The position numbers were made by a program, and so were the translations under genes. 64,000 bases of DNA from Sulfuricaulis limicola (GTDB lineage Bacteria; Pseudomonadota; Gammaproteobacteria; Acidiferrobacterales; Sulfurifustaceae), in NCBI RefSeq assembly GCF_002355735.1, contig NZ_AP014879.1:744001-808000 (forward strand). Reading direction: 5' to 3'. The first letter of the stretch is position 1, and each line of letters begins with the position of its first letter. Shown here piece after piece: positions 25,013-44,621 of this stretch. The notes under the pieces were generated by a model. It was not told the DNA's origin, did no database searches, and saw only the letters and a list, made by a program, of their open reading frames with translations.

Positions 25013-25079
25013 GTTTAGATGTTTCCCTGACATGAACGCGAACAGTGCGCAACGCCGCGCTTTTCGTGCCCCACAATAT

Positions 25080-26243: not shown

Positions 26244-26281
26244 GAAAATCCGGACGAGAAAACAGAAAAAATGTCAGCGCG

Positions 26282-27520
26282 CTAGTTTAACTGAATCCGC
26301 TGGCCCCAGGGCACTTTCTCCTTGCCCTTGACCAGCCACAGCACCGGATAGGACGGCTCGCGCTTGGGGAATTCGCCCCTGGCGTCGGTGAAGTAGAGCA
26401 ACAACTGGGGCGGCCGTTCCTGGTTCCCGGCCCATTCGAATACGGGGGTGAATCTGGTACCGCCACCGCCGTGCCACTGCTTTGGCAATGCGATTTCCTC
26501 CCACGGCTCGAAGGTCCAGGGACCGTCCTGCGCCAGCTTGTCATCGCAGGCGTGCAGCGTGATGCGTGCGCCGACCTGGCCCTTGATGGCGTTGACTTCG
26601 CTCACGAATTCCCGCATTTCCTCGTCCGAGATGGAACCGCTGGTGTCGAGCACCACGATCAGATCCGTGTGCTGGCTGCGCATGCCGGGCAGGATCGCCG
26701 TGCCCTCGCGCCGCGACGGGTGCACGAAACTGTAATCGTCGCGCGAGGCGCGCGTCATGTAGTGCGCCAGCAGCATGCGCCACGGCAGTTGCGGTTGCAG
26801 CAGGTGATCCACGATGCGCGCCATCGATCCGCCGAGCTTGCCGGCCTGGATCGCCTGTTGCGCGGCCGAGGCCAGGCGCTGCTGCCATTGCTTGTGCAGC
26901 GATTCCCGTTCCGGCGCGGACAACGGCGGTGGTTGCGGCGCACCGTTGGCTTGCGGATCCATTTCGCCCTGGCTGCCGCCGCCGTCATCGTCCTGCGACG
27001 GTCCCTCACCGCCCTGGCCGCCGCCCTGTTCGCCCGGGCCGTGCGGCCGGTCATCCTGGTCGTACAGGTGCTGATCCATCGGTTTTTCGTCGGTGTTTTC
27101 CTGGATGCAGGGATAAATCTCTTCCGCCGTCATGTCCTTGTAGGCGTCCAGCATGAGCGCATCCGGGGCCGGTCTCAGCCCGTCGGCGACGAGCAGGGGG
27201 TTGATGGCGAAATCGCAGGCCAGGTCCCAGCGGCGCTTGTCGCGATGCTCGCGGCGCGCGAAGTGCGACAGCGCGCAGTGCAGCGCCTCGTGCGCGAGGA
27301 TGAATTTGGTCTGCTCGAAAGACAGCGCCTCGATGTAACGGCGGTTGTAATAGAACGAGCGCGCGTCGGTGGCGGTGGTATGGCACCACTTCGGGTCGGC
27401 CTCCACCAGCGGCAGGCGCAGCACTAATGCGCCGAGGAATGGCTTGTCGATGATCAGCCAGGTGCGCGCGGCAACCAGCTTGTCTTCGACGGCGTCGCTT
27501 TTGGGGGCCTGTGAATTCAT
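26282..27520 (-). CDS. VWA-like domain protein with metallopeptidase-like N terminus (COG3864)
   Basis: A 412-residue protein. The N-terminal half has a zinc-peptidase-like HEALHCALSH (HExxH) within a DUF2201-type domain. A Gly/Asp/Gln-rich low-complexity linker (about 165-220) follows, then a C-terminal VWA-like domain with the MIDAS motif VVLDTSGSIS. These proteins pair with MoxR ATPases as metal-insertion or complex-remodelling chaperones, and here the MoxR gene ends 9 bp upstream. The client is unknown; the neighbouring DsrS-like gene hints at a sulfur-metabolism complex (inference). Confidence 0.85.
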   Translation of the reverse strand: MNSQAPKSDAVEDKLVAARTWLIIDKPFLGALVLRLPLVEADPKWCHTTATDARSFYYNRRYIEALSFEQTKFILAHEALHCALSHFARREHRDKRRWDLACDFAINPLLVADGLRPAPDALMLDAYKDMTAEEIYPCIQENTDEKPMDQHLYDQDDRPHGPGEQGGGQGGEGPSQDDDGGGSQGEMDPQANGAPQPPPLSAPERESLHKQWQQRLASAAQQAIQAGKLGGSMARIVDHLLQPQLPWRMLLAHYMTRASRDDYSFVHPSRREGTAILPGMRSQHTDLIVVLDTSGSISDEEMREFVSEVNAIKGQVGARITLHACDDKLAQDGPWTFEPWEEIALPKQWHGGGGTRFTPVFEWAGNQERPPQLLLYFTDARGEFPKREPSYPVLWLVKGKEKVPWGQRIQLN

Positions 27521-27529
27521 TCGCTCCGC

Positions 27530-28603
27530 TTATTTCACCTTGGCGGCGGGCTTCTGCCACATGTCGAAGATCATCACGTTGGCGATCTTTTTGGCCCATT
27601 GCGCGAACTGGGGAAGCTGAAACAGCTTTTCGCCCACGGCGCGCTGCATGTCCGAGACCAGCATGACGCCCATCTCGCGGCTCGGGAAACGCCCGGCGTA
27701 GTCGAGAATATTGCCGTAGACCCTGGCTTCGTCGGCACTGCCCTTGGCGCGGATGGCGCGGCCCACGAGCGCCGCCGCCACGGCGTATTGCAGGTCGGTT
27801 TCCTTTGGCACCGTGGTGGAGGCGCCGTTGATGATGGCGTCGATGTCCGGCAGGTTGTCGAGATTGTCGATAAAGGCCTTGAGTTCCACGCCGGCGGCGG
27901 GTCCTACGCAGGCCTCCAGCGAACCCAGCAGCAGATCCGGCGTTTCGCCGAACTTGGCAAGGGCGCGGTGTGCGAATTCCCACGAGCGCGGGCTGGGGAA
28001 GGCCACCGGGTTGTGCGCCGGATCGAAATCGAACAGCAGCTCGGGACGGAAGCGCAGGAACGCGATGACGCGCTCGTCGATGTTGTTGGCGTAGGCCCAG
28101 GCGACCCAGTCGTCGAGATGGGTCTCGACACCGAAGTGCGAGAAGCGGTTGGCCAGCGGCGCGGGCATGCTGTAGGTGACGCCGCGGTCGCCCTGGCGGT
28201 TGCCGGCGGCGAAGATGGCCCAGCCGGCAGGTACCGTGTAGGCGCCGAGGCGCCGGTCGAGGATCAGCTGATAAGCGGCGGCCGACACCGTCGGCGCTGC
28301 CGAGGTGATTTCGTCGAGAAACAGGATGCCCTCGGCGCCGTGGCGCTGGGCGTCCGGCAGCATCGCCGGAATGGCCCACTCGACGACGTCGCCGACACGA
28401 AACGGAATGCCGCGCAGGTCGGTCGGTTCCATCTGTGACAGGCGGATGTCGATGACCGGCACGCCGTGTTTTTTCGCCACCTGCGCCACCATCTGCGACT
28501 TGCCGACGCCGGGCGGGCCCCACAGCATGACCGGCGTGTGGTGGCCCTCGCGGGTGCTCAGGAATTCACGTTCAAGGACGGCAAGAATGAGCGCTGGGCG
28601 CAT
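27530..28603 (-). CDS. MoxR-family AAA ATPase
   Basis: A 357-residue AAA+ ATPase with Walker A GPPGVGKSQMV, Walker B ILFLDEITSA and sensor regions such as FAAGNRQGDRG. It is the first gene of a three-gene minus-strand operon (MoxR, VWA, DsrS-like). It probably remodels or activates a partner protein together with the VWA adaptor. About 150 bp separate it from the kup stop codon, leaving room for a promoter. Confidence 0.9.
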   Translation of the reverse strand: MRPALILAVLEREFLSTREGHHTPVMLWGPPGVGKSQMVAQVAKKHGVPVIDIRLSQMEPTDLRGIPFRVGDVVEWAIPAMLPDAQRHGAEGILFLDEITSAAPTVSAAAYQLILDRRLGAYTVPAGWAIFAAGNRQGDRGVTYSMPAPLANRFSHFGVETHLDDWVAWAYANNIDERVIAFLRFRPELLFDFDPAHNPVAFPSPRSWEFAHRALAKFGETPDLLLGSLEACVGPAAGVELKAFIDNLDNLPDIDAIINGASTTVPKETDLQYAVAAALVGRAIRAKGSADEARVYGNILDYAGRFPSREMGVMLVSDMQRAVGEKLFQLPQFAQWAKKIANVMIFDMWQKPAAKVK

Positions 28604-28754
28604 GAAAGCTCCGGTAGATGGGCGGATGAATGACGAATTTCACCAAGTATAAATTTGCCGCCGCCAAGCGTCCATGCAAATACGCGCCGTAACGGCAAAT
28701 ACCGGACAGGGTGGGTGGATTTTCCGGTGTCGCTGCTTTTGCCGACGCGCGGCG

Positions 28755-30641
28755 TCAGATCTCGACCTGCGTGCCGACCTCAATCACGCGATTGGCGGGC
28801 AGGTTGAAGTACTCCACGGGGCTGCTGGCGTTGCGTGCCAGGGTGGCGAACATACGCTCACGCCACAGCGCCATGCCCTCGTAGCGGATACTCGGGATCA
28901 CGGTCTCGCGGCTCAGGAAGAACGAGGTCTGGAGCGGCTGGAATTCCAGCTCGTATTCGCGGCACTGGTCGAGCACCTGCATGATGTCGGGGCGATCCTT
29001 GAAGCCGAAGTTAACGGTGAGCTGGAAGCAGTTGTTCCCGAGATCCTCGATAATCACGCGCTCGTCAGGCGGCACCCACGGGACATCCTTGATGATGACG
29101 GTGAGGAAGATCACGCGTTCATGCAGCACCTTGTTGTGCGCCAGGTTGTGCAGCAGCGCGTGTGGCACGCTGCCCGGCGTCGAGGTCATGAATATCGCGG
29201 TGCCGGCGACCCGCACCGGCGGGCTGCGCATCAGCGAATCCAGGAACGCCTCCAGCGGCACCGACGATTGCCGCAGCCGTGCGATCAGGATCTCGCGACC
29301 GCGCCGCCAGGTCACCATGAGCAGGAATATCGCCGTCCCGACAAACACCGGGAACCACCCGCCGTCGAATACCTTCAGCAGGCTGGCGGAGAAGAACGCC
29401 ATGTCCACGAAGATGAAAAAGCCGGTGCTGATGGCCGCCACGATCACGGGAATGCCCCATTTGTAACGGATCACGAAGAAGGTCAGTATGGTGTCGATCA
29501 GCATGGTGCCCGCCACCGCCACGCCATAGGCCGAGGCGAGATTGGATGAGGAGCCGAACCCGATCACGGCGAGGAGCACGGAAATGAGAAGGATCCAGTT
29601 AATGCTCGGAATGTAGATCTGCCCGATCTGTTTTACCGAGGTGTGCTGGATGTTCAGGCGTGGCAGGAAGCCGAGCTGGACCGCCTGCTTGGTGACAGAG
29701 TAGGTACCGGTGATGACCGCTTGCGAGGCGATAACGGTGGCCGCGGTGGCGAGAGCGATCATCGGGTACAGCGCCCAGTCCGGATAGGCGTGGTAGAACG
29801 GGTTGGCGATCGCTCCGGGGTTGATGATCAGCAACGCCCCCTGGCCGAAGTAATTCAGCACCAGCGCCGGCAGCACCAGGCCGAACCAGGCAATGCGGAT
29901 CGCGCGCTTGCCGAAGTGCCCCATGTCGGCGTAGAGCGCCTCCGCGCCGGTGAAGGCCAGCAGCACCGCGCCCAGCACCACGAACGAGGCGAAACTGTGG
30001 CCGGTAACGAAGCCGAAGGCATACACGGGGTTGAGCGCCCACAACACCATCGGGTTCTGGATAATGTTGTGCACGCCAACCGCGCCAAGGGAGAGAAACC
30101 ACAGCGCGCACACCGGCCCGAACAGGGCACCGACCACCGCCGAGCCATGGCGCTGAAACGCGAACAGCGTTACCAGCACGATGACCGCGATCGGGATGAC
30201 ATAAGGCCTGAAGGCCGCGGTGCCGACTTCGAGGCCCTCGACGGCGGACAGCACTGAGATCGCCGGCGTCAGCACGGCATCGCCATAGAACAGCGACGCG
30301 CCGATCACTCCGAGCAGCAGGATAACCGCATGCGAACGCGACGAGTTTTTGACCGCCGAGGAGGCCAGCGCCAGCAGCGCCATGATGCCGCCCTCACCCT
30401 TGTTGTCGGCGCGCATGATGAGCGTCACGTACTTGAACGTGACCACGATCATCAGCGCCCAGAAGATCGTGGACAGTCCGCCGAGAATGTTCTCGGCATT
30501 GAGAGGAATGCCGTGTTCGGCGCTGAAGGTTTCCTTGACGGCGTAGAGCGGGCTGGTGCCGATGTCACCGAAGACGACGCCAAGGGCCAGCAGGGCGAGC
30601 GCGGCGGTCGTGGAATTCCGCGCGGGGGCGTCGTTATTCAA
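28755..30641 (-). CDS. kup: low-affinity potassium transporter Kup
   Basis: About 628 residues, a KUP/HAK-family proton-coupled potassium transporter. The N-terminal LALGVVFGDIGTSPLYAVKETF signature is clear. About twelve membrane helices follow, with GGIMALLALA, GDAVLTPAISVLSAVEGL and ALYADMGHFGKRAIRIAW, then a cytoplasmic C-terminal domain. I place the start at the TTG at 30641 (NNDAPARNSTTAAL), because the longer frame to 30734 adds 31 residues unlike the family and 628 is the normal length. Expression from its own promoter in the 286-bp gap to the DsrC-like gene is likely. Confidence 0.93.
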   Translation of the reverse strand: MNNDAPARNSTTAALALLALGVVFGDIGTSPLYAVKETFSAEHGIPLNAENILGGLSTIFWALMIVVTFKYVTLIMRADNKGEGGIMALLALASSAVKNSSRSHAVILLLGVIGASLFYGDAVLTPAISVLSAVEGLEVGTAAFRPYVIPIAVIVLVTLFAFQRHGSAVVGALFGPVCALWFLSLGAVGVHNIIQNPMVLWALNPVYAFGFVTGHSFASFVVLGAVLLAFTGAEALYADMGHFGKRAIRIAWFGLVLPALVLNYFGQGALLIINPGAIANPFYHAYPDWALYPMIALATAATVIASQAVITGTYSVTKQAVQLGFLPRLNIQHTSVKQIGQIYIPSINWILLISVLLAVIGFGSSSNLASAYGVAVAGTMLIDTILTFFVIRYKWGIPVIVAAISTGFFIFVDMAFFSASLLKVFDGGWFPVFVGTAIFLLMVTWRRGREILIARLRQSSVPLEAFLDSLMRSPPVRVAGTAIFMTSTPGSVPHALLHNLAHNKVLHERVIFLTVIIKDVPWVPPDERVIIEDLGNNCFQLTVNFGFKDRPDIMQVLDQCREYELEFQPLQTSFFLSRETVIPSIRYEGMALWRERMFATLARNASSPVEYFNLPANRVIEVGTQVEI

Positions 30642-30927
30642 TTTTTTTTCCCGGAAAGCACGAATGCGCGCGCATGTTACTCCCGTGTTGCAGGATTGCA
30701 AGCCGATAAGACCATGCTGCGCGCAGGATGGCAATCCCGCGGGTGTTTAGCGGCAAATCAACCAGTTGCATGGCGCGATGCAGCACTCGCCTGGCGGGGT
30801 CGGGCATGCCTGCCGCTGGCGCGGTTCTTGCCGGCGGTCCTGCCAATGCAGGTCGATGCCTGCTGATATAAAATGTGGCATCCCGGCAAGACGATAACCC
30901 GTCGGCCGATCAACACGGAGGTGGCAC

Positions 30928-31293
30928 ATGCCCGACATCATGAAGTTCATCGTCAATGAAGGCGCGCTCGACAAGGACCCGGCGGGAAACCTGATCGCAC
31001 TGAATGACTGGTCGGAGGACATCGCGAGAAAACTGGCCAGGGAGATGAAAATAGAGCTCAAGGCCGACCACTGGGAAGTGATCAATTTCCTGCGCGATCT
31101 CTATCGGCAGCAAGGGCAGCCCGCGCATGCGCGCGACGTGCTACACGCGCTCGAGGAGCGGTTCGAGAAGAAGGGCGGGCGGAAACATCTTTATCTGCTT
31201 TTCCCGGGCGGCGCGGTAACGCAAGGCAGCCGGATCGCGGGTCTGCCCGTGCCCAAGGACAGCACGGACCCGTCCTTCGGCACGGCGATTTAG
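30928..31293 (+). CDS. cysteine-free DsrC/TusE-family protein
   Basis: A 121-residue DsrC-fold protein: LNDWSEDIARKLAREMKIELKADHWEVINFLRDLYRQQG and KHLYLLFPGG are family blocks. Active DsrC ends in a C-x10-C arm. Here the aligned arm reads SRIAGLPVPKDS, with serines at 101 and 112 exactly where both cysteines should be, plus nine extra residues. The protein has no cysteine at all. It cannot carry persulfide or trisulfide like DsrC or TusE and resembles the regulatory cysteine-less (RspA-type) branch. Strong CGGAGGTG site 6 bp before the ATG. Convergent with the ABC exporter, 7 bp away. Confidence 0.88.
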   Translation: MPDIMKFIVNEGALDKDPAGNLIALNDWSEDIARKLAREMKIELKADHWEVINFLRDLYRQQGQPAHARDVLHALEERFEKKGGRKHLYLLFPGGAVTQGSRIAGLPVPKDSTDPSFGTAI

Positions 31294-31300
31294 CGATTTC

Positions 31301-33112
31301 TCAGACGCCGACAGCCTTCAGCTTCTCTTCCTCTTCCTGCTGCTCCTGCTGTTGCAGCGCCCACATGTGGGCGTAGGCGCCGCCCTGCGCCAGCAGTTCG
31401 CCATGGGTGCCGCGTTCCACGATCTGCCCGTGCTCCATCACCAGGATCTGGTCGGCGTCCATGATGGTGGAGAGCCGGTGAGCGATAACCAGCGTGGTGT
31501 GGTTGGTCGCGATCTCCTGCAACTCCGCCTGAATCGCCTTCTCGGTTCGCGAATCGAGCGCCGAGGTGGCCTCGTCGAACACCAGGATCGGCGGGTTTTT
31601 CAGCAGCGTGCGCGCGATGGCGACACGCTGCTTTTCGCCGCCGGAGAGTTTCAGGCCGCGCTCGCCCACGAGGGTGTCGTATTTGTCCGGCAGCGTTTCC
31701 ACGAATTCATGGATGTGCGCCGAGCGCGCCGCCTCGATGATTTCCTCGCGCGTGGCGTCGGGCTGGCCGTAGGCGATGTTGTAATAGATGGTGTCGTTGA
31801 ACAGCACCGTGTCCTGCGGCACGATGCCGATGGCCCGGCGCAGGCTTTTCTGGGTCACGTCGCGGATGTCCTGGCCGTCGATCAGGATGCGACCCGTGGT
31901 GGCGTCGTAGAACCGGAAAATCAGGCGTGAAAGAGTCGATTTGCCCGCGCCGCTCGCGCCCACCACCGCCACCTTGTGTCCGGAAGGAACGTCGAAGCTC
32001 ACGTCCTGCAATACCATGCGCCGGTCGTCGTAGCCGAAGCCGACATGCTCGAAGCGGATTTCACCGCCACGGATATGCAGATCCCGGGCATCCGGACGGT
32101 CGCTGACCTCGGTATTCTGCGCCAGCAGCCCGAACATGCGCTCCATGTCGGCCAGTGAGTGACGGATCTCGCGGTACACGAAACCGAGGAAATGCAGCGG
32201 CATGTACAGCTGGATCAGGAAGGCGTTGACCAGCACCAGGTCGCCGATGGTCATGGTCCCGCGCACCACGCCCTGGCCGGCCATGAGCATGAGGATGGTG
32301 ACGCCCACGGCAATGACCGCGCCCTGGCCGATGTTCAGAAACGACAGCGAGGTCTGGTTGCGGACCGCCGCCTTTTCCCAGGACTGCAAAGTCTCGTCGT
32401 AACGGCGCGCCTCGAAGCCCTCGTTGTTGAAATATTTCACGGTCTCGTAATTGAGCAGGCTGTCGATGGCGCGCGTGTTGGCCTTGGAGTCCATCTCGTT
32501 CATGTTGCGCCGGAAGATCATGCGCCACTCGGTGACCCAGAGCGTGAAAGCGATGTACACCACCAGCGTGACCAGCGTCACGATGCAGAACCACGGGTCG
32601 TACTTGACCAGCAGGATCGCCGCCACGAAACCGATTTCGAGGATGGTGGGCAGGATGTTGAACAGCATGAAGTTGAGCAGGAAGCGGATGCCCGCGGTGC
32701 CGCGCTCGATGTCGCGCGACATGCCGCCGGTCTGGCGCTCGAGATGGAAGCGCAGGGCCAGGTTGTGCAGGTGTTCGAAGACCTTGAGCGCCACGCGCCG
32801 GATCGAGCGTTGCGTGACCTTGGCGAACACGGCGTCGCGCAATTCGCCGAAGGTCGAGTTGGCCAGCCGCAGCGCGCCGTAGGCGACGAGCAGGAAAACC
32901 GGCAGGGCCAGCGGGGCGGTGCCCGGGCTGAGCGCGTCGACGATGTCCTTCAGCACCAGCGGGACGGCGACGGTGGCCACCTTGGCGAGCGCCAGGAAGG
33001 CGAGCGCCAGCACCACCCGGCCGCGGAATTCCCACAAATAGGGCAAGAGCGATTTGATCGCGTTCCAGTCGCTCTGGCGCGCGGGGGGTTTTCCGTAGTG
33101 TCGAGTTCGCAT
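31301..33112 (-). CDS. Atm1/HMT1-type ABC exporter (fused permease-ATPase)
   Basis: About 603 residues. Six transmembrane helices lie in the first 320 residues. The nucleotide-binding domain follows, with Walker A VGASGAGKSTLSRLIFRFYD, the signature LSGGEKQRVAIARTLLKNP and Walker B ILVFDEATSALDSRTE. The N-terminal TMD sequence and IVPQDTVLFNDTIYYNIAYG resemble the Atm1/ABCB7 half-transporters that export glutathione-linked sulfur or metal compounds. A Gln/Glu-rich tail ends the protein. ATG at 33112 is used; a TTG at 33127 is possible. Proximity to DsrC- and thioredoxin-type genes fits thiol chemistry, but this is inference. Confidence 0.88.
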   Translation of the reverse strand: MRTRHYGKPPARQSDWNAIKSLLPYLWEFRGRVVLALAFLALAKVATVAVPLVLKDIVDALSPGTAPLALPVFLLVAYGALRLANSTFGELRDAVFAKVTQRSIRRVALKVFEHLHNLALRFHLERQTGGMSRDIERGTAGIRFLLNFMLFNILPTILEIGFVAAILLVKYDPWFCIVTLVTLVVYIAFTLWVTEWRMIFRRNMNEMDSKANTRAIDSLLNYETVKYFNNEGFEARRYDETLQSWEKAAVRNQTSLSFLNIGQGAVIAVGVTILMLMAGQGVVRGTMTIGDLVLVNAFLIQLYMPLHFLGFVYREIRHSLADMERMFGLLAQNTEVSDRPDARDLHIRGGEIRFEHVGFGYDDRRMVLQDVSFDVPSGHKVAVVGASGAGKSTLSRLIFRFYDATTGRILIDGQDIRDVTQKSLRRAIGIVPQDTVLFNDTIYYNIAYGQPDATREEIIEAARSAHIHEFVETLPDKYDTLVGERGLKLSGGEKQRVAIARTLLKNPPILVFDEATSALDSRTEKAIQAELQEIATNHTTLVIAHRLSTIMDADQILVMEHGQIVERGTHGELLAQGGAYAHMWALQQQEQQEEEEKLKAVGV

Positions 33113-33238
33113 AGGGATGGGGATCAATCAGGAACGAAATGAATTCTACCCGATCTGCGTCATATACTTGTAACGTTTGTCCGACAAACCGCAGCCGATT
33201 CGCGGCCGGCGGCGGTTCCGAACACGGAGGTGATGGTG

Positions 33239-34273
33239 ATGAGTCACGGTTTCAGGTCATTGGCACTGCTGGGCGCAGGGATACTGCTGGGGCTGGTGCC
33301 GGTATTGCTGCCGGCGGCGGAGAAGGCCGAGCTGCGCGGTGTCGGCCAGTTCGAGATCCCCGTCTGGTTCAAGAAATCCTTCCTCGATCTGCCGCACGAT
33401 GTCGCCGAGGCGACGCGAAACGGCAAGCGTCTGATGCTCTATTTTGGGCAGGACGGCTGCCCGTATTGCGCCGAGCTGTTCAACAAGAACTTCAGCCAGG
33501 CGCATATCGTGGAATACACCCGCCGGCATTTCGACGCCATCGATCTGAACCTGTGGGGCGACCGCGCGGTGACCGATTTTTCCGGCAATGTCATGCCGGA
33601 GAAGGAATTCGCCGCGAAACTCAAGGTCTGGTTCACGCCGACGCTGCTGTTCTTCAACGAAAAGGGCGAGCAGGTGCTGCGCATCAACGGTTACTATCCG
33701 CCGCACCAGTTCCTGGCGGCGTTGCGATACGTCGCGGAAAAGCAGGAAGGCCGCCTGAGCTTCCGCGAATATCTGGCGCAACAGGCGCCAGCGCCGGCCA
33801 AAGGCTCGCTGCAGCCGCAGCCGTTTTTCGCCAAACCTCCGCATGATCTGGGCAAGATTCCGGCGGGGAAACCGGTCGCCGTGTTCTTCGAGCAAAAGGA
33901 CTGCGCCGGCTGCGATCGCATGCACGCCGAGATGGCGGGCAATGCCGCCACGCTGGAGCTGCTCAAGCGCTTCCATGTGATTCAACTGGATCGTTGGGGC
34001 ACCACGCCGCTCGTGACTCCCGCCGGCAAAAAAATCAGTGCGCGCCTGTGGGCCGACGAGTTGGGGATCGCCTATGTGCCCACGGCGGTGTTGTACGACG
34101 CCGGCAGGGAAGTGATACGCATCGAGGCCTTCATGAAGGGGTTTCACGTCCAGTCGGTGCTGGATTACGTTGCCTCCGGTGCGTATAAAAAGCAGCCCGA
34201 GTTGCAGCGTTTCATCCGCGAGCGTGCCGATCACCTGCGCGAGCAGGGCGTGGTGGTGGACATCTGGGAATGA
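33239..34273 (+). CDS. periplasmic tandem thioredoxin-like protein (SoxW-like)
   Basis: 344 residues from the ATG at 33239, 8 bp after CGGAGG. A signal peptide (about 1-27) is followed by two thioredoxin folds. Domain 1 has CPYC (C74, C77) and cis-proline FTPTLLFF. Domain 2 has CAGC (C222, C225) and VPTAVLYD. Domain 1 resembles SoxW-type thioredoxins of sulfur oxidisers. Two active CxxC motifs in one exported chain suggest an electron-transfer or thiol-isomerase role. It is convergent with the dsbB-like gene 12 bp away, at the end of the bufferin operon. Confidence 0.85.
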   Translation: MSHGFRSLALLGAGILLGLVPVLLPAAEKAELRGVGQFEIPVWFKKSFLDLPHDVAEATRNGKRLMLYFGQDGCPYCAELFNKNFSQAHIVEYTRRHFDAIDLNLWGDRAVTDFSGNVMPEKEFAAKLKVWFTPTLLFFNEKGEQVLRINGYYPPHQFLAALRYVAEKQEGRLSFREYLAQQAPAPAKGSLQPQPFFAKPPHDLGKIPAGKPVAVFFEQKDCAGCDRMHAEMAGNAATLELLKRFHVIQLDRWGTTPLVTPAGKKISARLWADELGIAYVPTAVLYDAGREVIRIEAFMKGFHVQSVLDYVASGAYKKQPELQRFIRERADHLREQGVVVDIWE

Positions 34274-34285
34274 TTTAAAACGGTT

Positions 34286-34777
34286 TCAGCGCTTGCCGAG
34301 AACGGTAAAGACCAGCATCAGTCCCAGCAGGATAAAACCGATGAAGAAAATCAGCGTCCAGGATGGCATGCTGAGTCCCAGAAAAGACCAGGTAATCTTG
34401 CCGCAACCGCCGCTGCCTTCCAGTACCAGCTTGAGGGTTTTCAGCAGCGGGAAGGTTTCCAGCATGTCGTTGAGGCTGTAGCCGCAGCCGGGTTGCAGAT
34501 CGGGCGGAAGATTTTCGATCCATACATGCCGGCCGGCGAATCCGGCGCCCAGCGCGGCTGCCAGCGCCACGAGCCCGCCATAGATGCGTCGCCCGACCTT
34601 GCCCGGGTTGTGCAAGGCGCCGGCCAGCAGGATCAGGCCGGTGACGATCACGAACACCCGTTGGAAGATGCAGAGCGGGCACGGTTCGAGTTTCATGCCG
34701 TACTGGAAGTACAGCGCCGCGGCCATCAGGCCGGCACAGACCAGGAAACCCCCGAAGAAAATCATCCGCTGTGACAT
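34286..34777 (-). CDS. DsbB-like disulfide bond formation protein
   Basis: A 163-residue four-helix membrane protein from the ATG at 34777. It keeps both DsbB cysteine pairs: C33 and C36 in EPCPLCIFQR, and C98 and C125 in the periplasmic loop (PGCGYSL, GGCGK). DsbB oxidises DsbA-type partners and passes electrons to quinone. It begins 43 bp after the DUF2063 gene on the same strand with no terminator between. It therefore looks like the fourth gene of the bufferin operon, in the place where a DoxX-type protein is often found. Confidence 0.9.
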   Translation of the reverse strand: MSQRMIFFGGFLVCAGLMAAALYFQYGMKLEPCPLCIFQRVFVIVTGLILLAGALHNPGKVGRRIYGGLVALAAALGAGFAGRHVWIENLPPDLQPGCGYSLNDMLETFPLLKTLKLVLEGSGGCGKITWSFLGLSMPSWTLIFFIGFILLGLMLVFTVLGKR

Positions 34778-34820
34778 GTTCTTAATTATTATCGCCGTCT
34801 GTTGTTCAATGGCAGGTATT

Positions 34821-35702
34821 CTATTGTTTCCTGAAATCAATATCACTGACGATGCCGTCGGTGATCCATTGTTTCATCAGCCCGGCGGCGTGCAGCGCCA
34901 CGTTTTGTGCATCGATCCATTCGCACAGGCCTTCGCAGATCGCGGCAAAATTCTCGCCGGTCATCGCGGCATCGAGCGCCCAGGCCTCGTCCACGGACAG
35001 GGAGCGGAACCAGGTTTTCAGGTCCTGGCGCCAGACGAGCCAGGCCTGCGGATGTTCATGTTCCATCAGGGCGGGCACCTCGGCGACCGCGGGTGTGTCC
35101 CCATGCTGTTTCTTTCCCGCTGATGGCGTGGCGCTGGTTTCGCCCCGGCAGGAAGCGGCGGTTTTTCCGGCATCCAGATTCTGGTTGATGGCCTTCCAGA
35201 GAATGGGCACGTTCCAGCGCAGGTCCAGACGCTGCGCGGAAGGATGAAATTGCAGGCGCATGTCCGGCCAGGCCGAAGCCGGAATCGCCGCCATGTCCTC
35301 GATGCCGATGACCGTGCCGTCCTCCGCGTCAAATGCCTCGGACAGCGCCCACTCCAGCGCCGCCATTTCGGCGAGACTGGATTTTTCGCACCAGGGCTGG
35401 GCGGTGGCGAGAAATTCCGGCAGAAGATGCCCGAACCAGCGGATGGAAAAATGCCGCGAGGGATGGGCAGAGACGTAGGCAATCCCGATGTTTTCGAATT
35501 CGTCTTCGCCAAGCCAGGCGCGCAATACGGGATAGTTCGACGCCAGGGCCTCCAGCAGCCGCAGCCGGTAGGCGTCGTAATAAATGGCGAGGCGCTGTTC
35601 GGCGCTGATTTTGGCGGTGCCGGTGACGCGGCCCAGCATGCGCGCATTACCGTCAAGCAGGAAGGTCTGGAAATCGGCTTGCAGGTCGGCCAGCGCGTTC
35701 AT
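34821..35702 (-). CDS. bufC: DUF2063 (HvfC/BufC-type) partner of MNIO maturase
   Basis: A 293-residue soluble protein from the ATG at 35702. The N-terminal domain (LADLQADFQTFLLDG..., RLAIYYDAYRLRLLEALASNYPVLRAWLGEDEF, then YVSAHPSRHFSIRWFGHLLPEFL) is the DUF2063 signature. These proteins bind the precursor leader and present it to the DUF692 enzyme. The start lies 2 bp from the maturase stop, so the two are translationally coupled. A Gly/Lys/His-containing linker at about 190-215 is less conserved. Confidence 0.9.
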   Translation of the reverse strand: MNALADLQADFQTFLLDGNARMLGRVTGTAKISAEQRLAIYYDAYRLRLLEALASNYPVLRAWLGEDEFENIGIAYVSAHPSRHFSIRWFGHLLPEFLATAQPWCEKSSLAEMAALEWALSEAFDAEDGTVIGIEDMAAIPASAWPDMRLQFHPSAQRLDLRWNVPILWKAINQNLDAGKTAASCRGETSATPSAGKKQHGDTPAVAEVPALMEHEHPQAWLVWRQDLKTWFRSLSVDEAWALDAAMTGENFAAICEGLCEWIDAQNVALHAAGLMKQWITDGIVSDIDFRKQ

Positions 35703-35704
35703 GT

Positions 35705-36568
35705 TCAGGCCGCCGTTACCGCCGTCTGGCGCTGCGAAGTGGCGGCGATCCGTCGGGCGCGGTCCAGCTCGGCCAGCAGTTCCGCCAGCGGCGGAATGTT
35801 GTCGTCGCGTTCGATCATGGTCGAGACGCGCCCGAAACGCCGGACGGCGACCTCGTACAATTCCCACACGGGATCGATCACCGGCTCGTCGTGGGTGTCG
35901 ATGATGTAATCACCGTGGTTGCGGTGCCCGGCGAGATGGAACTGCCAGACCCGATCCGGTGGAATGGCGTTGAGATAGGCATGCGGGTTGAATTCATGGT
36001 TGACGCTGCTGACGTAGATGTTGTTGATGTCGAGCAGGATCAGGCAATCAGCACGCGCGGTGATTTCGCGCAGGAATTCCCATTCGCTCATTTCCGATTC
36101 GGGATAGCTGACGTAACTGGAAACGTTCTCCAGCAATATCCGGCGACCGAGAAAATCCTGCACCTCGACGACACGCGCTGCCACGTGTTTCAAGGCTTCC
36201 TCGGTGTAAGGCAGAGGCAGCAGGTCGTGGGCATTCAGGCCGTGCGCGCCGGTCCAGCACAGGTGATCGGAGATCCAGGCTGGTTCGACACGGTCGGCAA
36301 GCGTCCTCAACTGCTTGAGGTATTCGCGGTCCAGCGGGTCCTGCGTCCCGATCGAAAGCGATACCCCATGCATGACCATGGGGTATCGCTCGCGGATGCG
36401 GTCGAGATAATGCAGTGGTCTTCCGCCCGGGATGAGGTAGTTTTCGGAAATGATCTCGAACCAGTCGACTGCCGGCGCTTCGGTCAGGATGGTTTCGTAA
36501 TGCGTCGGGCGCAGGCCCAGTCCAAAGCCGAGATAAGGGCGTTCAGGAAGATGAGGGCTGCTTGTCAT
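35705..36568 (-). CDS. bufB: MNIO-family (DUF692) bufferin maturase
   Basis: A 287-residue TIM-barrel multinuclear iron oxidase. Typical blocks with metal-ligand His/Asp/Glu/Asn residues are GFGLGLRPTHYE, WFEIISENYL, MHGVSLSIG, ISDHLCWTG, LLENVSSYV, LLDINNIYVS, WQFHLAGH and DTHDEPV. Related enzymes (MbnB, HvfB/BufB) convert cysteines of a precursor to oxazolone/thioamide or thiooxazole groups that bind copper. The ATG at 36568 is preferred over a GTG at 36583, because the GTG lies inside a terminator-like stem. The precursor gene lies directly upstream. Confidence 0.93.
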   Translation of the reverse strand: MTSSPHLPERPYLGFGLGLRPTHYETILTEAPAVDWFEIISENYLIPGGRPLHYLDRIRERYPMVMHGVSLSIGTQDPLDREYLKQLRTLADRVEPAWISDHLCWTGAHGLNAHDLLPLPYTEEALKHVAARVVEVQDFLGRRILLENVSSYVSYPESEMSEWEFLREITARADCLILLDINNIYVSSVNHEFNPHAYLNAIPPDRVWQFHLAGHRNHGDYIIDTHDEPVIDPVWELYEVAVRRFGRVSTMIERDDNIPPLAELLAELDRARRIAATSQRQTAVTAA

Positions 36569-36581
36569 CGGCGGAAAAAAC

Positions 36582-36605
36582 ACCGGGCGCCGCGAGGCAC
36601 CCGGT
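36582..36605 (-). terminator. terminator-like hairpin between precursor and maturase
   Basis: ACCGGG (36582-36587) pairs with CCCGGT (36600-36605) and the inner GCC with GGC, with one C-A bulge. On the minus strand the stem is followed by GTTTTTT. It lies 23 bp after the bufA stop and 14 bp before the bufB ATG. It probably terminates a share of transcripts, giving more precursor than maturase mRNA. Confidence 0.7.
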
Positions 36606-36628
36606 TTTATCTGCGTCAGGATTTCGGC

Positions 36629-36910
36629 TTACTTTTTATGCATCTCGCCCTTCATCTTGGCTTGGGCCGCGTCACACTCCGCCTTGCTCATGTACTGCCA
36701 GCCCTTGCCCTTGCAGCTGTTCTGGCCCTTGCAGGCACTGGAAGCAGTCTGGCAGGCTGACGTGCCCTTGCAGGAATTCACGCCGTTGCAGTGGACCTTG
36801 GCTTCGCCTTCATGCTTGGCAGCGTTGGCGGCAGTGATACCGACGGTGGCGAACAGGCCGGCGGCGGCCGTGGCCAGGGCCAGGCCGGTGAGTTTCTTGG
36901 CATTCATCAT
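36629..36910 (-). CDS. bufA: bufferin-type (BufA1/DUF2282-like) six-cysteine precursor peptide
   Basis: 93 residues from the ATG at 36910 (GGAGA 9 bp upstream; a second ATG is adjacent). A Sec signal peptide ends at about ANA30. The mature part carries six cysteines at 41, 47, 53, 60, 66 and 79, within EGEAKVHCNGVNSCKG, SACQTASSACKG and QNSCKGKGWQYMSKAEC; the NSCKG unit occurs twice. This is the pattern of bufferin precursors, exported peptides whose core cysteines are modified by the MNIO enzyme and then bind copper. It is the first gene of a four-gene minus-strand operon. Modification and metal are inferred from the family. Confidence 0.9.
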   Translation of the reverse strand: MMNAKKLTGLALATAAAGLFATVGITAANAAKHEGEAKVHCNGVNSCKGTSACQTASSACKGQNSCKGKGWQYMSKAECDAAQAKMKGEMHKK

Positions 36911-37208
36911 AAATAATCGTCTCCGTTGTTTAGGGTTTGTTGCGTTCAGTTGATCTCGTTGGGAAGAGGCCTCAGTAGGGCAATGCAGATCAGTGCCTCG
37001 ACCGGGAATCAACCGCACGGTTATGACACAGCTTCCCTGTGCAAGTTCCTGATGCCTTCAGGGCGGGAACAATCTAACAGATGCCGGGGGCAGCCGCCCA
37101 GCCGCCCAGCCGCCGGTCCGGCCAATCGGCCCATACGGGCCTTGATCCACTGCCGGAACCGCGGGGAAGTCGCGGAAATCGGCAGCTGCCGGCATCCCCG
37201 GGCGGAGG

Positions 37209-38885
<1,677 letters not shown>

Positions 38886-38993
38886 GGAGCTACCTGATGT
38901 GGGTCAAAGGCTGCTTATTATAGGGGTGGCGCAAAAGGAGGCAACGGTGCGGCGCGCCCGGATACCGGGCGCGCTGATGATAAAACGCGGAAT

Positions 38994-41231
38994 TCAGCGG
39001 CGGGAATTCGCCCAGTTGGGCGTGCCGGTGTCGGAGGCGAGCGTGGCTTCGTCGGCGAAGGTGTAATCGGTGTGGGCGTCCGCCTGCTGGAAGTAGTTGC
39101 CCTGCACGTAATCGAAGCCGAGGTTCCACAACACCCCGAGATCATCGGCTTTCTCGACGAACTTGGCGATGGTCTGCTTGTTCATGGACTTGGCCAGATC
39201 GATGATGGCCTTGAGCGAGGTGCGGGTCAGCACATCGGTCGACAGGTTGCGGATCAGCGACCCCGATATCTTGAGAAAATCCACCGGCATTTCGCGCAGG
39301 CGATTGAGCGTGCTCAGGTTGTTGCCGAAATTGTCGACCGCGAAGCGGCAGCCGATCCGCTTGACGGCCTGCATGAACATGGCCGCGTCCGACGGGTTCT
39401 CCATGACCGCCGATTCGTCGGCCTCGAGCACCAGATATTTCGGTTTGAGGCGCGCGGCGGTGATCTCCTTCTGGAGCATGGTGAGCAATTCGGGATCGCC
39501 CAGTGATACCGGGCTCAGATTCACGAAGAAGCTGGCCTTGCGGCCGTCACGATGCAGCGCGGCGAGCGATTGCACTGACTGGCGGATGACCCAGTGATCG
39601 ATAGTCGTCAGCAATCCCAGTTGTTCCGCGGCGGGCATGAATTCGCCGGCATGGATCAGTTCGCCATTGCGCCCCGCGAGTCGCAACAGCACTTCGAAAT
39701 ACTCCGCCGGGTCGCCGTGGAGATTGACGGTGGGCTGATAGGCGAGCTGGAAGCCGTCTTTCTCCAGCGCGGTTTTGAGTCGTCCCTCCCAGTCCTGTTC
39801 GGCGTTCATGGACACGGACGGCGCCGGCCGGCGAATTTCGGTCAGGGTGGGAATCGGCGCCAGCGCCGGTACCTCCGCCGCGGCGGGCGCCTCGGTCACT
39901 GGCACCGGTCTGGAAGCCGGGGCTGGTATCGGTACCGGCTCCGGGGCAGGCGCGACCACCACAGGCGCCGGTCGGGACGGCCGGCTGCCCTGGCAGGTCT
40001 GATACGCCTTGTTCAGCACCGCCTGCGCGCTTTCACAGTGTTTGTCGATCACCACCACGCCGATGGTGCCGTCGCAGCGGAAGGTTTTGCCACCCTCGCT
40101 GAAGGTGGTGTCCTTGAGCGAGGCGAGCAGCGCGGCCACGGATTCCTTGATCTGGCTCTCGCTCATATCGTGCAGCAGCGCGGTGAACTCGTCGCCGCTG
40201 AAGCGCGCCAGAATCGTCGAATCACCGAGCTTGTCCCGGAACAGGCGCGCGATCTTGAGCAGCAGGCGGTCGCCGGCGGCGTGGCCGAGGCTGTCGTTGA
40301 TTTCCTTGAGCTCGTTGAGATCGAGATAGAGCAGGGCGCTCTGGCTGCCGTCCTGTTTCGCCTTCTCCAGCGTCCGGGTCAGCTCCTGGGTGAAGTGATG
40401 GCGGTTGAAAAGCCCGGTGAGCGGATCATGCTGGTTCAGGTATTGCAGGCGGTTCTCGACGGCCTTGCGCTTGGACACGTCGATGACGACGCACTGTGTG
40501 CAGTTTTCGCCGTTGAGCACGATCGGCGAAATCGCCAGCTCCGCGTGAAAATGCTGCCCATCCTTTTTTGCCGCCAGGAATTCCTGCGGCTCGGGTGGAT
40601 TCGGCGAGTTGATCTTGCGCAGAAAATCCTTGAAACGCACGTGATCGGATTTGGCGACCAGGTTCATCAGGGGGACGCCTTCGAGTTCGGTCAAATCCTC
40701 GTAGCCGAACATATCGAGGTAGGTCTTGTTGGCGTCGATGTGCATGCCATCCTGGCAGTAACAGATGGCCTCGCGCGAGCCTTCGATGATGGCGCGGTTT
40801 TTGTTCTCCACCTCGTTCAGTGTCAGCGACATCTTCTGGTATTTCCGGCGTTCCTCGGCCACGTGCAGCTCGCGCTCGACGGCGGGCGCGAGACGCGCCG
40901 ACTGGCTTTTCAGCACCACGTCGTGCGCGCCGTTGCGCATGATCTTGACCAGGTCCGGATCGCGGATGTTGCGGGTGACCACGAGGAAGGGTATGTCGAG
41001 ATGCGCGCGCTTCACCAGATCAAGCGCCAGTTGCGCGCCGAAATGCGGGAGCGTGTATTCCGACAGCACCACGTCCCAGGTTCCCTTGTCGAGCGCCGTC
41101 TGCATGGAGGCGAGGTCCTGAACGCGCTGATTCTTGAGCATGAAACCGGCCTTGCGCAGCGAGGCTACGGCCAGCTCGGCGTCATCCGGTGAGTCGTCAA
41201 CGATCAGCAGGCGTAATATCTTTTTTTCCAC
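38994..41231 (-). CDS. FimX-like REC-PAS-GGDEF-EAL protein
   Basis: 745 residues. Residues about 5-125 are a receiver domain with the acidic pair D12 D13 but E58 (VVLSEYTLP) in place of the phosphoacceptor Asp. About 140-255 is a PAS domain. About 262-420 is GGDEF with SGDEF at 345-349. A Pro/Ala-rich linker spans 415-470. About 480-720 is an EAL domain with E513-V514-L515 in place of EAL, and DN at 633-634 instead of DD. The EVL motif, domain order and FVEKADDLGVLWNLGFDYVQGNYF match FimX, a c-di-GMP-binding regulator of type IV pili with little or no phosphodiesterase activity. No pilus gene is nearby. Confidence 0.85.
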   Translation of the reverse strand: MEKKILRLLIVDDSPDDAELAVASLRKAGFMLKNQRVQDLASMQTALDKGTWDVVLSEYTLPHFGAQLALDLVKRAHLDIPFLVVTRNIRDPDLVKIMRNGAHDVVLKSQSARLAPAVERELHVAEERRKYQKMSLTLNEVENKNRAIIEGSREAICYCQDGMHIDANKTYLDMFGYEDLTELEGVPLMNLVAKSDHVRFKDFLRKINSPNPPEPQEFLAAKKDGQHFHAELAISPIVLNGENCTQCVVIDVSKRKAVENRLQYLNQHDPLTGLFNRHHFTQELTRTLEKAKQDGSQSALLYLDLNELKEINDSLGHAAGDRLLLKIARLFRDKLGDSTILARFSGDEFTALLHDMSESQIKESVAALLASLKDTTFSEGGKTFRCDGTIGVVVIDKHCESAQAVLNKAYQTCQGSRPSRPAPVVVAPAPEPVPIPAPASRPVPVTEAPAAAEVPALAPIPTLTEIRRPAPSVSMNAEQDWEGRLKTALEKDGFQLAYQPTVNLHGDPAEYFEVLLRLAGRNGELIHAGEFMPAAEQLGLLTTIDHWVIRQSVQSLAALHRDGRKASFFVNLSPVSLGDPELLTMLQKEITAARLKPKYLVLEADESAVMENPSDAAMFMQAVKRIGCRFAVDNFGNNLSTLNRLREMPVDFLKISGSLIRNLSTDVLTRTSLKAIIDLAKSMNKQTIAKFVEKADDLGVLWNLGFDYVQGNYFQQADAHTDYTFADEATLASDTGTPNWANSRR

Positions 41232-41635
41232 AAATCCCTCTATCTCAAGACTATTTTAGCAAAAACGCCCTGTAAACCCGTTTTCAGGCGGTAAACCACG
41301 GGAAGTGCGGACAGACCGGAATTCAAGTATGGCAGCAAAAATCGTTCCAGAGGGCATTTTCTTGCCTTTGGGTCTGGATGTCCCTCGATCCAGCAGAATA
41401 TGCCATTTATCGAACACGTCACGCTGTCGGATTGTGATCCGGCAAACCCTGTATAGGCTTGCCCTGCGGTGGGGTTGCGCAAGCAATCGCCCTGAAACAG
41501 CGGGTTTTGCCCAGGGACGGGTAAACCACCCGGGGAATGCCGCATGAATGCCGCAATCGCCCTGCAATAGGAAGGCGCGCCCGTGTACCGGCACGCCAAT
41601 CACGTGGAAAGGCGGGAAGCGACAAGGGGCATACC
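41232..41635. other. 404-bp divergent regulatory region
   Basis: This lies between the FimX-like gene (minus) and sat-cysC (plus). It has no convincing gene: several short ORFs on both strands overlap but lack ribosome sites or family features. It contains a GAATGCCGCATGAATGCCGC direct repeat (about 41536-41555) close to the sat start. Promoters for both genes must lie here. I see no riboswitch that I can name. Confidence 0.5.
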
Positions 41636-43495
41636 ATGAGCGGCGCACATCGTTTGGGAGCAGCCAGGGAACTGAATCAACCTTACGGCGGGACACTGGT
41701 CAATCTGCTGGTTGATCCTGGCCGTGCCGCCGAGCTCAAGGCGGCTTCGCGCGATCTGGCCTCGCTCGATCTTTCTCCACGGCAACTCGCCGACCTGGAA
41801 ATGCTGGCGACGGGGGTATTATCGCCGCTGACGTCCTTCATGGGCCAAGCCGATTACGAGGCCGTATGCGCGGGTATGCGCCTCGCCGACGGCCGGCTCT
41901 GGCCGGTGCCGGTGACGCTGGACGTGTCGCTGAAATTCGCCGAAAGCATTGCGCCGGGGCGGCCGATCGCCCTGCGCGACGCCGAGGGCACGCTCATGGC
42001 GGTGCTCACGGTGGCGGAAATCTGGCAACCGGACCGGGGCGCGGAAGCGCAGTGTCTCTATGGCACGCGTTCCTTCACGCACGCGGCGGCTAATCAGCTG
42101 CTCAATGCGGGCGGCGAGGCCTGTGTCACCGGCAAGCTCGAGGTCGTGGAACTGCCGCTGCATCATGACTTCGGTCCGCTGCGCCGGACCCCGGCGGAGG
42201 TGCGCGCGCAACTGGCGCGACGCGGCGCCACGCGCGTGGTCGGCTATCACCCGCGTCATCTCATGCATCGTGCGCACGTGGAATTCACCAAGCGCACCGC
42301 CTACCTGCATGACGCCGTGTTGCTGATCCAGGCAGCCATCGGCCGCCGGGGGCTGAACGACGCCGATCATTTCTCGCGCGTGCGCGCCCTGCGCGCGGCG
42401 CTCGATCATTACTCCGCTCAGGTCGCGCAACTGAATCTGCTGGAGCTGTCACCGCGCCATAGCGGCGCGCGCTCCGCCTTGTGGCATGCGATTCTGCACA
42501 AGAATTTCGGCTGCTCGCATTTCATCGTGGAGCACGATTACGACGACCAGGGTGAGGGCGCCACCGGCGATCCGCTGTATGGGCGGTACCACGCTCTGGA
42601 CTCCGTGACCTGGCATGCGCAGGAGATCGGCATCGAGGTGGTGCCGTTCCGCAATCTGGTGCTGGAAGAAGACCAGCCGGAAAAACTGCTGTCACCGCGC
42701 GGCGCGAGCCGGCGCATGAAAGGCCGGATCCGTGAAACGTCGCATGAACAGCATGCCGAGGTCGCGCACTGGTTTTCCTACCCGACGGTGCTGGAGGAAT
42801 GGCGCAAGACGCTGCGCCATGGTTTCACGCTGTTTTTCACCGGCCTGTCGGGCGCGGGCAAATCCACGCTGGCGCAGGTGCTGTATGCGCGGCTCAAGGA
42901 GCAGGAGGCGCGTCCGGTCACGCTGCTCGACGGCGACATTGTGCGCAAGAATATTTCCTCCGAGCTTGGCTTCTCGCGCGAACACCGCGACATGAACGTG
43001 CTGCGCCAGGGCTACATGGCGAGCCTGATCACGCGTCATGGCGGCATCGCCATCTGCGCGCCCATCGCGCCCTATGCCAACACGCGTGCCCAGGTGCGCG
43101 CCATGGTCGAGGAGGACGGTGATTTCATCGAGATTTACGTGGCCACGCCGCTGACCACCTGCGAGACACGCGACCGCAAGGGTCTGTACGCGCGGGCGCG
43201 CGCCGGCCTGATCAAGCAATTCACCGGCGTGTCCGATCCCTACGAGACGCCGGTCAACCCCGAGATCGTGGTGGATACTTCGCTGCAATCGGCCGGCGAA
43301 GCGGCGGACAAGATCCTGGCGTATCTCACGGCGCAGGGGTATCTGGGCCGCGGGAGCACGATGGAGGCGGAGACGCACAAGATCAAACACGAACCGATCA
43401 CGCTCTGGACGTCGGACGCCGGCAGCTTGCCGCAGACTTTGTCCTCCGGCGACGGCGCGTCGTCTCCCGGTGCCGGGAAGCGGCTCTATAAGTAA
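41636..43495 (+). CDS. sat-cysC: bifunctional sulfate adenylyltransferase/adenylylsulfate kinase
   Basis: 619 residues from the ATG at 41636. Residues about 1-390 form ATP sulfurylase (NLLVDPGRAAELKA, TGVLSPLTSFMGQADYEAVC, the nucleotide-site HPRHLMHRAH). Residues about 400-590 form APS kinase (P-loop FTGLSGAGKSTLAQVL, DGDIVRKN, SELGFSREHRDMN, RDRKGLYARARAG). In sulfur oxidisers Sat can run in the direction APS to sulfate plus ATP; the fused kinase domain instead points to PAPS formation for assimilation. The direction cannot be read from sequence. The last 60 residues are a variable tail. Confidence 0.93.
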   Translation: MSGAHRLGAARELNQPYGGTLVNLLVDPGRAAELKAASRDLASLDLSPRQLADLEMLATGVLSPLTSFMGQADYEAVCAGMRLADGRLWPVPVTLDVSLKFAESIAPGRPIALRDAEGTLMAVLTVAEIWQPDRGAEAQCLYGTRSFTHAAANQLLNAGGEACVTGKLEVVELPLHHDFGPLRRTPAEVRAQLARRGATRVVGYHPRHLMHRAHVEFTKRTAYLHDAVLLIQAAIGRRGLNDADHFSRVRALRAALDHYSAQVAQLNLLELSPRHSGARSALWHAILHKNFGCSHFIVEHDYDDQGEGATGDPLYGRYHALDSVTWHAQEIGIEVVPFRNLVLEEDQPEKLLSPRGASRRMKGRIRETSHEQHAEVAHWFSYPTVLEEWRKTLRHGFTLFFTGLSGAGKSTLAQVLYARLKEQEARPVTLLDGDIVRKNISSELGFSREHRDMNVLRQGYMASLITRHGGIAICAPIAPYANTRAQVRAMVEEDGDFIEIYVATPLTTCETRDRKGLYARARAGLIKQFTGVSDPYETPVNPEIVVDTSLQSAGEAADKILAYLTAQGYLGRGSTMEAETHKIKHEPITLWTSDAGSLPQTLSSGDGASSPGAGKRLYK

Positions 43496-43524
43496 TTAAC
43501 GCCCGCCGTGCGGGTTGAGCGCGG

Positions 43525-44607
43525 CTAGTTCGCGACGCGAGCCGCGCCGGCTGAATGGCCCGCGGCGAGCGGGAAGGCCACGAGATGATCGGCCTGCACG
43601 CGGATGCCGACGAGCTCGCCGATCGCGTGATCGGCGTGACTCGGAAACAACGCCAGCAGCCGGCCGCCGCTGGGCAGGCGCAAGGTATAAAGGATCTCCG
43701 CACCGCGAAAGGCCTTCTGCGCCACCTTGGCCCGGAGCGTACTCTCCGGGTCCGGCACGATGTCATCCGGCCGCAACAGCAGCTCGAGCGGCGCTCCCCG
43801 TCCCCAGTCGTAGGCGCGATCGCCCCTGTGCACGCCGATCTCGGTTTCGATCGTCTCGGGCGTGAGCAGGGTACCGCGCAGGAACACGCCCTGCCCGATG
43901 AAATCGGCGACAAAGCGGTCAGCCGGCTCGTGATACAGGTTGTAGGGCGTGTCCCACTGCAACAGCTTGCCCTCGCGCATAACGCCGACGACATCGCCGA
44001 GCGCGAAGGCTTCGTGCTGGTCATGCGTCACCAGCACGCCGGTGGCGCCGCGCTGCCTGAGAATCTCGCGCACCTCGCCCGAAAGGCGTTCGCGCAGCTC
44101 GACGTCGAGGTTGGAAAACGGCTCGTCGAGCAGGATGAGATCGGGCTGCGGCGCCAGCGCCCGCGCCAGCGCCACGCGCTGCTGCTGTCCGCCGGAGAGC
44201 TCGTGCGGGTAGCGCCCGCCCATGCCGCCGAGACCCACGACCTCGAGCATTTCATCGACGAGTTTTTGCCTGCGGGCGCCGGTGATTCCGCGCAGGCCGA
44301 AGCCGACATTGCCGGCGACGTCGAGGTGCGGAAACAGGGCGTGATCCTGGAACACCATGCCGAGGCGGCGTTTCTCCGGCGGCAGGGTGAAGCCCGGTTG
44401 GGACACGGCGCTGCCATTGATCCAGATGTTGCCCGCGCTCAGGGGGTGAAAACCGGCGATGGCGCGCAACACGGTGGTCTTGCCGCAGCCGCTCGGTCCC
44501 AGCAGGCAGGCGATGCTGCCGGCGGTGACATGCAGCGACAGTCCGTCCACCGCGAGACGGCCGTCGTAGCGGCATACGATGTCATTGAGCGCGAGTATTT
44601 CGTTCAC
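43525..44607 (-). CDS. ABC transporter ATP-binding protein, FbpC/PotA-type
   Basis: A 360-residue ATPase. Walker A LGPSGCGKTTVLRAIAGFHP, signature ELSGGQQQRVALARALAP, Walker B LILLDEPFSNLDVELR and switch VTHDQHEAFAL. The C-terminal third (about 240-355) is a TOBE-like regulatory domain. It resembles ATPases of ferric-iron or polyamine importers. No permease or binding-protein gene is adjacent, so it is an orphan subunit here. It is convergent with sat-cysC (29 bp apart). Confidence 0.87.
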   Translation of the reverse strand: MNEILALNDIVCRYDGRLAVDGLSLHVTAGSIACLLGPSGCGKTTVLRAIAGFHPLSAGNIWINGSAVSQPGFTLPPEKRRLGMVFQDHALFPHLDVAGNVGFGLRGITGARRQKLVDEMLEVVGLGGMGGRYPHELSGGQQQRVALARALAPQPDLILLDEPFSNLDVELRERLSGEVREILRQRGATGVLVTHDQHEAFALGDVVGVMREGKLLQWDTPYNLYHEPADRFVADFIGQGVFLRGTLLTPETIETEIGVHRGDRAYDWGRGAPLELLLRPDDIVPDPESTLRAKVAQKAFRGAEILYTLRLPSGGRLLALFPSHADHAIGELVGIRVQADHLVAFPLAAGHSAGAARVAN

Positions 44608-44621
44608 GGAAAGATTTAATG

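Follow-up and report, generated by a model that had tools for sequence, protein, structure and literature searches.

Does a dsbB gene that directly follows a bufferin operon take part in making the bufferin, or do the two lie next to each other with separate functions? The question is raised by a locus of the sulfur-oxidizing bacterium Sulfuricaulis limicola, which is located in a window of 64,000 nucleotides (nt; contig NZ_AP014879.1, positions 744,001 to 808,000). The host genome is a single contig of 2,864,672 bases, of which this window forms part. The minus strand of the window carries, in this order, ettA, bufA, bufB, bufC and dsbB, and the spacers calculated from the coordinates are 298 nt (ettA-bufA), 60 nt (bufA-bufB), 2 nt (bufB-bufC) and 43 nt (bufC-dsbB). 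Order, common strand and the 2-nt gap between bufB and bufC agree with a preliminary description of the locus, which was made from the sequence alone. The analysis presented here indicates that very probably two independent functions stand side by side, a bufABC operon of the Buf2 type and a general dsbB, which is not a dedicated part of the bufferin pathway.

The bufA gene (36629..36910, minus strand) encodes a Buf2-type bufferin precursor of 93 amino acids with six cysteines, which scored 89.9 bits against the NCBIfam model Cu_RiPP_BufA2 (cut-off 60). The six cysteines are invariant in all eight copies of the genus Sulfuricaulis (8/8; the ninth genome compared, G008, has no bufA). Judged by eye, with no program prediction behind it, the N-terminus is signal-peptide-like, with a positively charged start, a hydrophobic, alanine-rich stretch and an Ala-x-Ala motif. 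The MNIO (formerly DUF692) bufferin maturase encoded by bufB (35705..36568, minus strand) reached 398.9 bits against NCBIfam MNIO_BufB (cut-off 310) and 391 bits against Pfam MbnB_TglH_ChrH (cut-off 25), and bufB is the sole PF05114 match in the host genome. Its partner protein BufC (bufC, 34821..35702, minus strand) is a DUF2063 protein by Pfam (75.4 bits, cut-off 27.2) and matched NCBIfam HvfC with 33.4 bits, below the cut-off of 142. The bufferin identity of bufABC given in the preliminary description is confirmed by the two BufA and BufB cut-offs and by the Pfam assignment of BufC.

The product of dsbB (34286..34777, minus strand), previously called DsbB-like, is DsbB by Pfam (161.7 bits, cut-off 22.1). 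The NCBIfam DsbB equivalogs matched below their cut-offs (best 156 versus 168 bits). Both cysteine pairs (C33, C36, C98 and C125), described before as intact, are invariant in all 11 DsbB sequences of an alignment, and so is Arg40. This is the only DsbB match in the host genome, and the DsbA family is represented there by four matches, none of them inside the window.

When four genes form a tidy neighbourhood in a single genome, this can be a local accident. A comparison of nine Sulfuricaulis species (genomes G000 to G008, the host genome included) shows the operon with and without dsbB, two sites of dsbB and a natural deletion. Exactly one DsbB was found in each of the nine genomes, whether linked to buf genes or not. 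The order bufABC-dsbB-trx2-ABC is contiguous on one contig in G000, G002, G006 and G007, trx2 being a name coined in this analysis for the gene that is convergent with dsbB. Two further loci are split by contig ends: in G001, bufC-dsbB lies on one contig and ettA-bufAB with the start of bufC on another, and in G003, ettA-bufAB with the start of bufC lies on one contig and dsbB-trx2 on another. Both are compatible with the same bufABC-dsbB arrangement and do not prove it.

The remaining three genomes differ. For G004 and G005 the order ettA-bufABC-trx2-ABC was found with no intervening dsbB and a distance between bufC and trx2 of 12 and 286 nt, respectively. Here, dsbB sits near lptF, lptG and pepA (families assigned by Pfam in G005 and by position and likeness in G004). 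G008 (79% complete) has no BufB match and no bufA, and its bufC is a remnant of 62 residues; dsbB is retained. This locus (L036:5379-6781) has lost bufAB and the greater part of bufC by deletion, and repeat-rich stretches flank the retained dsbB on both sides. The site formed by pepA, lptF, lptG and a trx2 paralogue is also present in the host and in G006, with no dsbB there; in G007 the contig stops behind lptG, and in G008 no trx2 match was obtained at this site. Within the genus dsbB occupies one of two places, and at both, G004 excepted, it is convergent with a trx2-family gene. The trees do not resolve the deepest branches of the genus and give no order in time for the two sites within it. 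The position behind bufC is read as derived, because the loci of the family stand without dsbB.

These family loci comprise ettA-bufABC in six further genomes (G010, G011, G012, G014, G016 and G017), and in the stretch examined the DsbB model matched at none of them. Five family genomes (G010, G012, G013, G014 and G015; 63 to 95% complete) have a BufB above the cut-off and no DsbB match, although draft genomes may miss a dsbB. The BufB of G010, G012 and G014 belongs to the ettA-linked operon and that counted in G015 to a second type of cluster described below; the family case for bufABC without DsbB is carried by the first three.

The survey was extended to 80 named BufB loci, whose best segments share 63 to 82% identity with the query and of which one (L081) comes from the genus Sulfuricaulis (G005) and 79 from outside. 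None of them (0/80) holds a DsbB match in the available flanks; 72 of the 80 loci reach at least 600 nt and 57 at least 5 kb beyond the expected end of bufC, and eight end within 600 nt. The controls for the DsbB and the DoxX model came from the sequences on which each had been trained; one more DsbB, a partial one in L045, was an independent find. Clustering of the flanking frames of 79 loci resulted, besides the buf genes and overlapping frames, in no group present in more than six loci. The coarseness of this clustering is evident from the DoxX model, which gave matches in 10 of the 80 loci; two of these 10 look like other clusters. At the loci examined in the genus and the family, the ettA gene adjoins bufABC, but among 79 distant loci only two have it there. 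One of these two is probably a member of the family.

At the level of the class, 95 of 281 genomes have a BufB above the cut-off, 73 of them with and 22 without a DsbB match. Among the 63 genomes for which the places of both genes are among the matches listed, two have BufB and DsbB within 10 kb (the host and G092); for 10 of the 73 no DsbB place is among the matches listed. G092 was rejected as a second case of bufABC-dsbB, because its dsbB is encoded on the other strand and three further frames separate the genes. A literature search limited to open-licence papers yielded, among the matches listed, no paper joining MNIO with dsbB, and those listed for bufferin and dsbB concerned other subjects, where the term may catch 'buffering'; absence from print is not claimed.

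In the loci examined, the linkage is confined to part of one genus (0/80 named loci, 0/6 family loci). The preliminary description had named as contrary evidence a dsbB that is the only general DsbB of the genome and has no conserved linkage to bufABC in relatives. The first part was found, and the second holds outside the genus and not wholly inside it. Since close relatives keep bufABC without dsbB, the pairing looks like local gene order and not like a new pathway.

Four observations weigh against two independent functions. First, four species have a contiguous bufABC-dsbB and two an arrangement compatible with it, and in a seventh dsbB is in place without bufAB; an order found in several species is old enough for more than a passing accident. 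Second, DsbB is commoner among class genomes with a BufB above the cut-off (73/95) than overall (176/281), kinship being ignored. Third, in a Buf1 bufferin the outer two cysteines are described as forming one disulfide (PMC12452194), so that DsbB may matter to bufferins generally. Such a disulfide would be served by a general DsbA/DsbB pathway irrespective of where the genes of the pathway are located. Fourth, the 43-nt spacer between bufC and dsbB of the host (34778..34820, minus strand) contains no terminator-like site on the minus strand, neither by scan nor by folding, and read-through from bufC is therefore possible.

Such read-through could mean transcriptional coupling only, in which dsbB would gain a copper-linked expression and the cell, when stressed by copper, more periplasmic oxidizing power, with the bufferin itself untouched. 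The host spacer and the order that is stable in several species are consistent with this explanation, which is nevertheless rather doubtful. In loci whose bufC has not been shortened by a deletion, the spacer length varies between 43 and 152 nt (host 43 nt, G001 66 nt, G007 137 nt, G006 150 nt and G002 152 nt; 389 nt after the deletion in G008). In three relatives (G002, G006 and G007) the spacer contains ACAGGATT/AATCCTGT repeats (L040:8194-8343, L041:3398-3549), which look like a repetitive element inserted there. In the two cases folded, the repeat forms a long and very stable hairpin (z −6.95 in G006 and −9.21 in G002). In addition, a terminator behind bufA would weaken any read-through to dsbB, and G008 keeps dsbB without the region upstream of bufA. 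The host spacer and its immediate surroundings contain two weak promoter-like matches, with 0.8 expected over the 3-kb stretch scanned.

The second neighbour of dsbB is trx2 (33230..34273, plus strand), which is convergent with it at a distance of 12 nt. Its product matched Pfam Thioredoxin_2 in two stretches (118.8 bits), and a search against PDB sequences gave DsbC (4fyb, E 6.9e-11). A trx2 homologue is found at this locus in all nine genomes of the genus, and a convergent thioredoxin-fold gene of this kind is a steadier neighbour of dsbB than bufC. The paralogue beside lptG (L170:4041-5060; about 36% identical) marks the site where G005 keeps dsbB. DsbB and Trx2 could accordingly form a periplasmic thiol pathway as real partners, with bufC as a bystander. 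The convergent arrangement at both sites (12 nt here and 30 nt from the paralogue in G005) and the sequence likeness of Trx2 to DsbC point in this direction. However, the dsbB of G004 has no adjoining Trx2 match, none was detected at 1e-5 around the dsbB genes of seven other members of the family or order, and trx2 stays in place when dsbB lies elsewhere. Since the two paralogues could merely have guided recombination, a partnership is possible but not the probable explanation.

Both neighbours are combined in a scenario in which dsbB moved between the 3′ ends of the two thioredoxin paralogues and was captured by the bufferin operon behind bufC, so that copper stress would raise the peptide together with the oxidase that sets its remaining disulfide. 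We consider this unlikely. A placement of dsbB by chance or guided by trx2, with possible read-through, is the most likely explanation.

A replacement of DoxX by DsbB was rejected as well. The DoxX model, which was built from four family genes, each of them DoxX by Pfam, gave no match at E 1e-3 in positions 25001-45000 of the window, in the other genus loci and in the six ettA-bufABC loci of the family. The DoxX genes seen in the family lie in a second MNIO cluster (L058:5304-8740, L073:4119-6491), which contains BufB and BufC homologues and a DoxX gene and whose precursor, where tested (L058), is of the DUF2282 type. The L058 cluster additionally carries a radical-SAM/DUF3641 gene. That DsbB is a dedicated fourth component in the place of DoxX, as the preliminary description had proposed, and oxidizes or recycles exported bufferin thiols with electrons passing to quinone, is very improbable: the common strand with its short spacer, the order conserved in four species and fitting two others, the intact cysteine pairs and the plausibility of a quinone-linked membrane oxidase as partner (GigT, a DoxX relative, has been proposed to be linked to the quinone pool; PMC10304878) speak for it, but dsbB is the single general copy in the host and in each genome of the genus, its linkage was not found at the six family and 80 other loci, BufB is kept without any DsbB match and dsbB without bufAB (G008), and no DoxX match lies beside the orthologous operon. 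A dedicated service of the bufferin by the host dsbB is not supported.

A more useful lead is found inside the operon. In the gap between bufA and bufB an intrinsic terminator-like hairpin was identified (36582..36605, minus strand), which consists of 10 pairs, 8 of them G-C, followed by a T run. A G+C-rich hairpin followed by T occurs between the two genes in all eight operons of the genus, in five of the six of the family and in 20 of the 70 distant ones, whereas 0.0, 0.1 and 1.7, respectively, were expected from first-order shuffles. In total, 84 of 93 loci could be judged, and the hairpin was found in 33 of these 84 Buf2-type operons and in 13 of 14 in the family; the distant count includes one repeat, as L097 and L072 of G012 are apparently one and the same locus (same hairpin). 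The folding of the host hairpin resulted in a z of −2.33, and the local scan detected 4 terminator-like sites in 3 kb versus 3.2 expected. The hairpin is credible because its position is conserved across operons, not because of the local scan. In the genus the stem core is constant, and loop and flanks are variable. The sequence conservation suggests that this is likely a leaky terminator which sets the precursor above the maturase (dosage control), and it would explain how much precursor and little enzyme are made. Leaky terminators in such a position are part of other peptide operons as well.

Upstream of bufA a GGAACTT-N15-GTC element was delimited by the genus pattern and an aligned block (37022..37049, minus strand). 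It resembles a sigma-E-type promoter and is a candidate for one used by an extracytoplasmic function (ECF) sigma factor. Seven of the eight genus loci contain a looser form of the pattern, with 0.25 expected, and five of the eight a stricter one. Outside the genus, the looser pattern was present in one of the six family loci and in 3 of the 70 distant loci, where 1.5 were expected. The genome-wide search gave 3 matches versus 8 for the reversed control, and one of the other two genome matches lies inside a frame that resembles dnaG by eye. An ECF-sigma regulon was rejected, since the genome matches are fewer than those of the reversed control and the element is rare outside the genus; the element itself is kept as a candidate only. 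The upstream neighbour of bufABC, ettA (37209..38885, minus strand), a gene for a translational throttle, matched NCBIfam EttA with 1011 bits. A search of positions 33000-39000 against Rfam gave no match. Near the locus, a single protein (41537-43495) joins ATP sulfurylase and APS kinase domains.

Protein families, gene order, copy number, presence or absence in relatives and hairpin conservation were established at the sequence level, and the following scheme for the transcription, the role of copper and the biochemistry of the locus is deduced. BufB together with BufC would oxidize cysteines of the BufA precursor, presumably to thiooxazoles as in characterized relatives, where such pairs are described as turning cysteines into copper-binding thiooxazoles in the periplasm (PMC12452194, PMC13097082). 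The bufferin product would reach the periplasm by means of its putative signal peptide and bind excess copper there. The terminator behind bufA would stop most transcripts and a minority would continue into bufBC, so that the precursor would outnumber the enzyme. DsbB would be the general quinone-linked enzyme of the cell for the re-oxidation of DsbA. Some members of the genus Sulfuricaulis probably acquired its gene in a position with bufC on one side and trx2 on the other. There, transcripts reading through from bufC may extend into dsbB, and DsbB may act on disulfides of the bufferin as any oxidase of the periplasm might.

Among known systems, the locus is most similar to the Buf2 operons (BufA2/BUF_6/12Cys), with which it shares a six-cysteine precursor with a signal-peptide-like start, an MNIO maturase and a DUF2063 partner, a set described by Antoine et al. 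(2025; PMC12452194). According to the description given there, the core consists of the precursor, MNIO, DUF2063 and DoxX genes, and additional conserved genes occur in extremely low proportions; the string 'dsb' is absent from the main text of that paper. The difference is that in the host a dsbB follows on the same strand.

The Gig system of Cupriavidus metallidurans (gigPABT; PMC10304878) resembles the locus, whose precursor has a signal-peptide-like start, in its peptide with a signal peptide, its DUF2063 protein and a fourth gene that encodes a membrane protein. The Gig peptide is described as having four cysteines and the operon as copper-induced. In contrast to the host locus, its fourth gene gigT is DoxX-related and the ECF sigma gene rpoQ is adjacent; where DsbB appears in the passages concerned, it is named solely as a general periplasmic redox route (PMC10304878). 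With the DsbA/DsbB pathway the host shares a DsbB with both cysteine pairs and the conserved Arg as well as the four DsbA-family matches elsewhere in the genome, and the only difference is the position of its dsbB behind bufC. Compared with these systems, bufABC of S. limicola is a Buf2 operon of the ordinary kind, and what is instructive about it is its neighbour.

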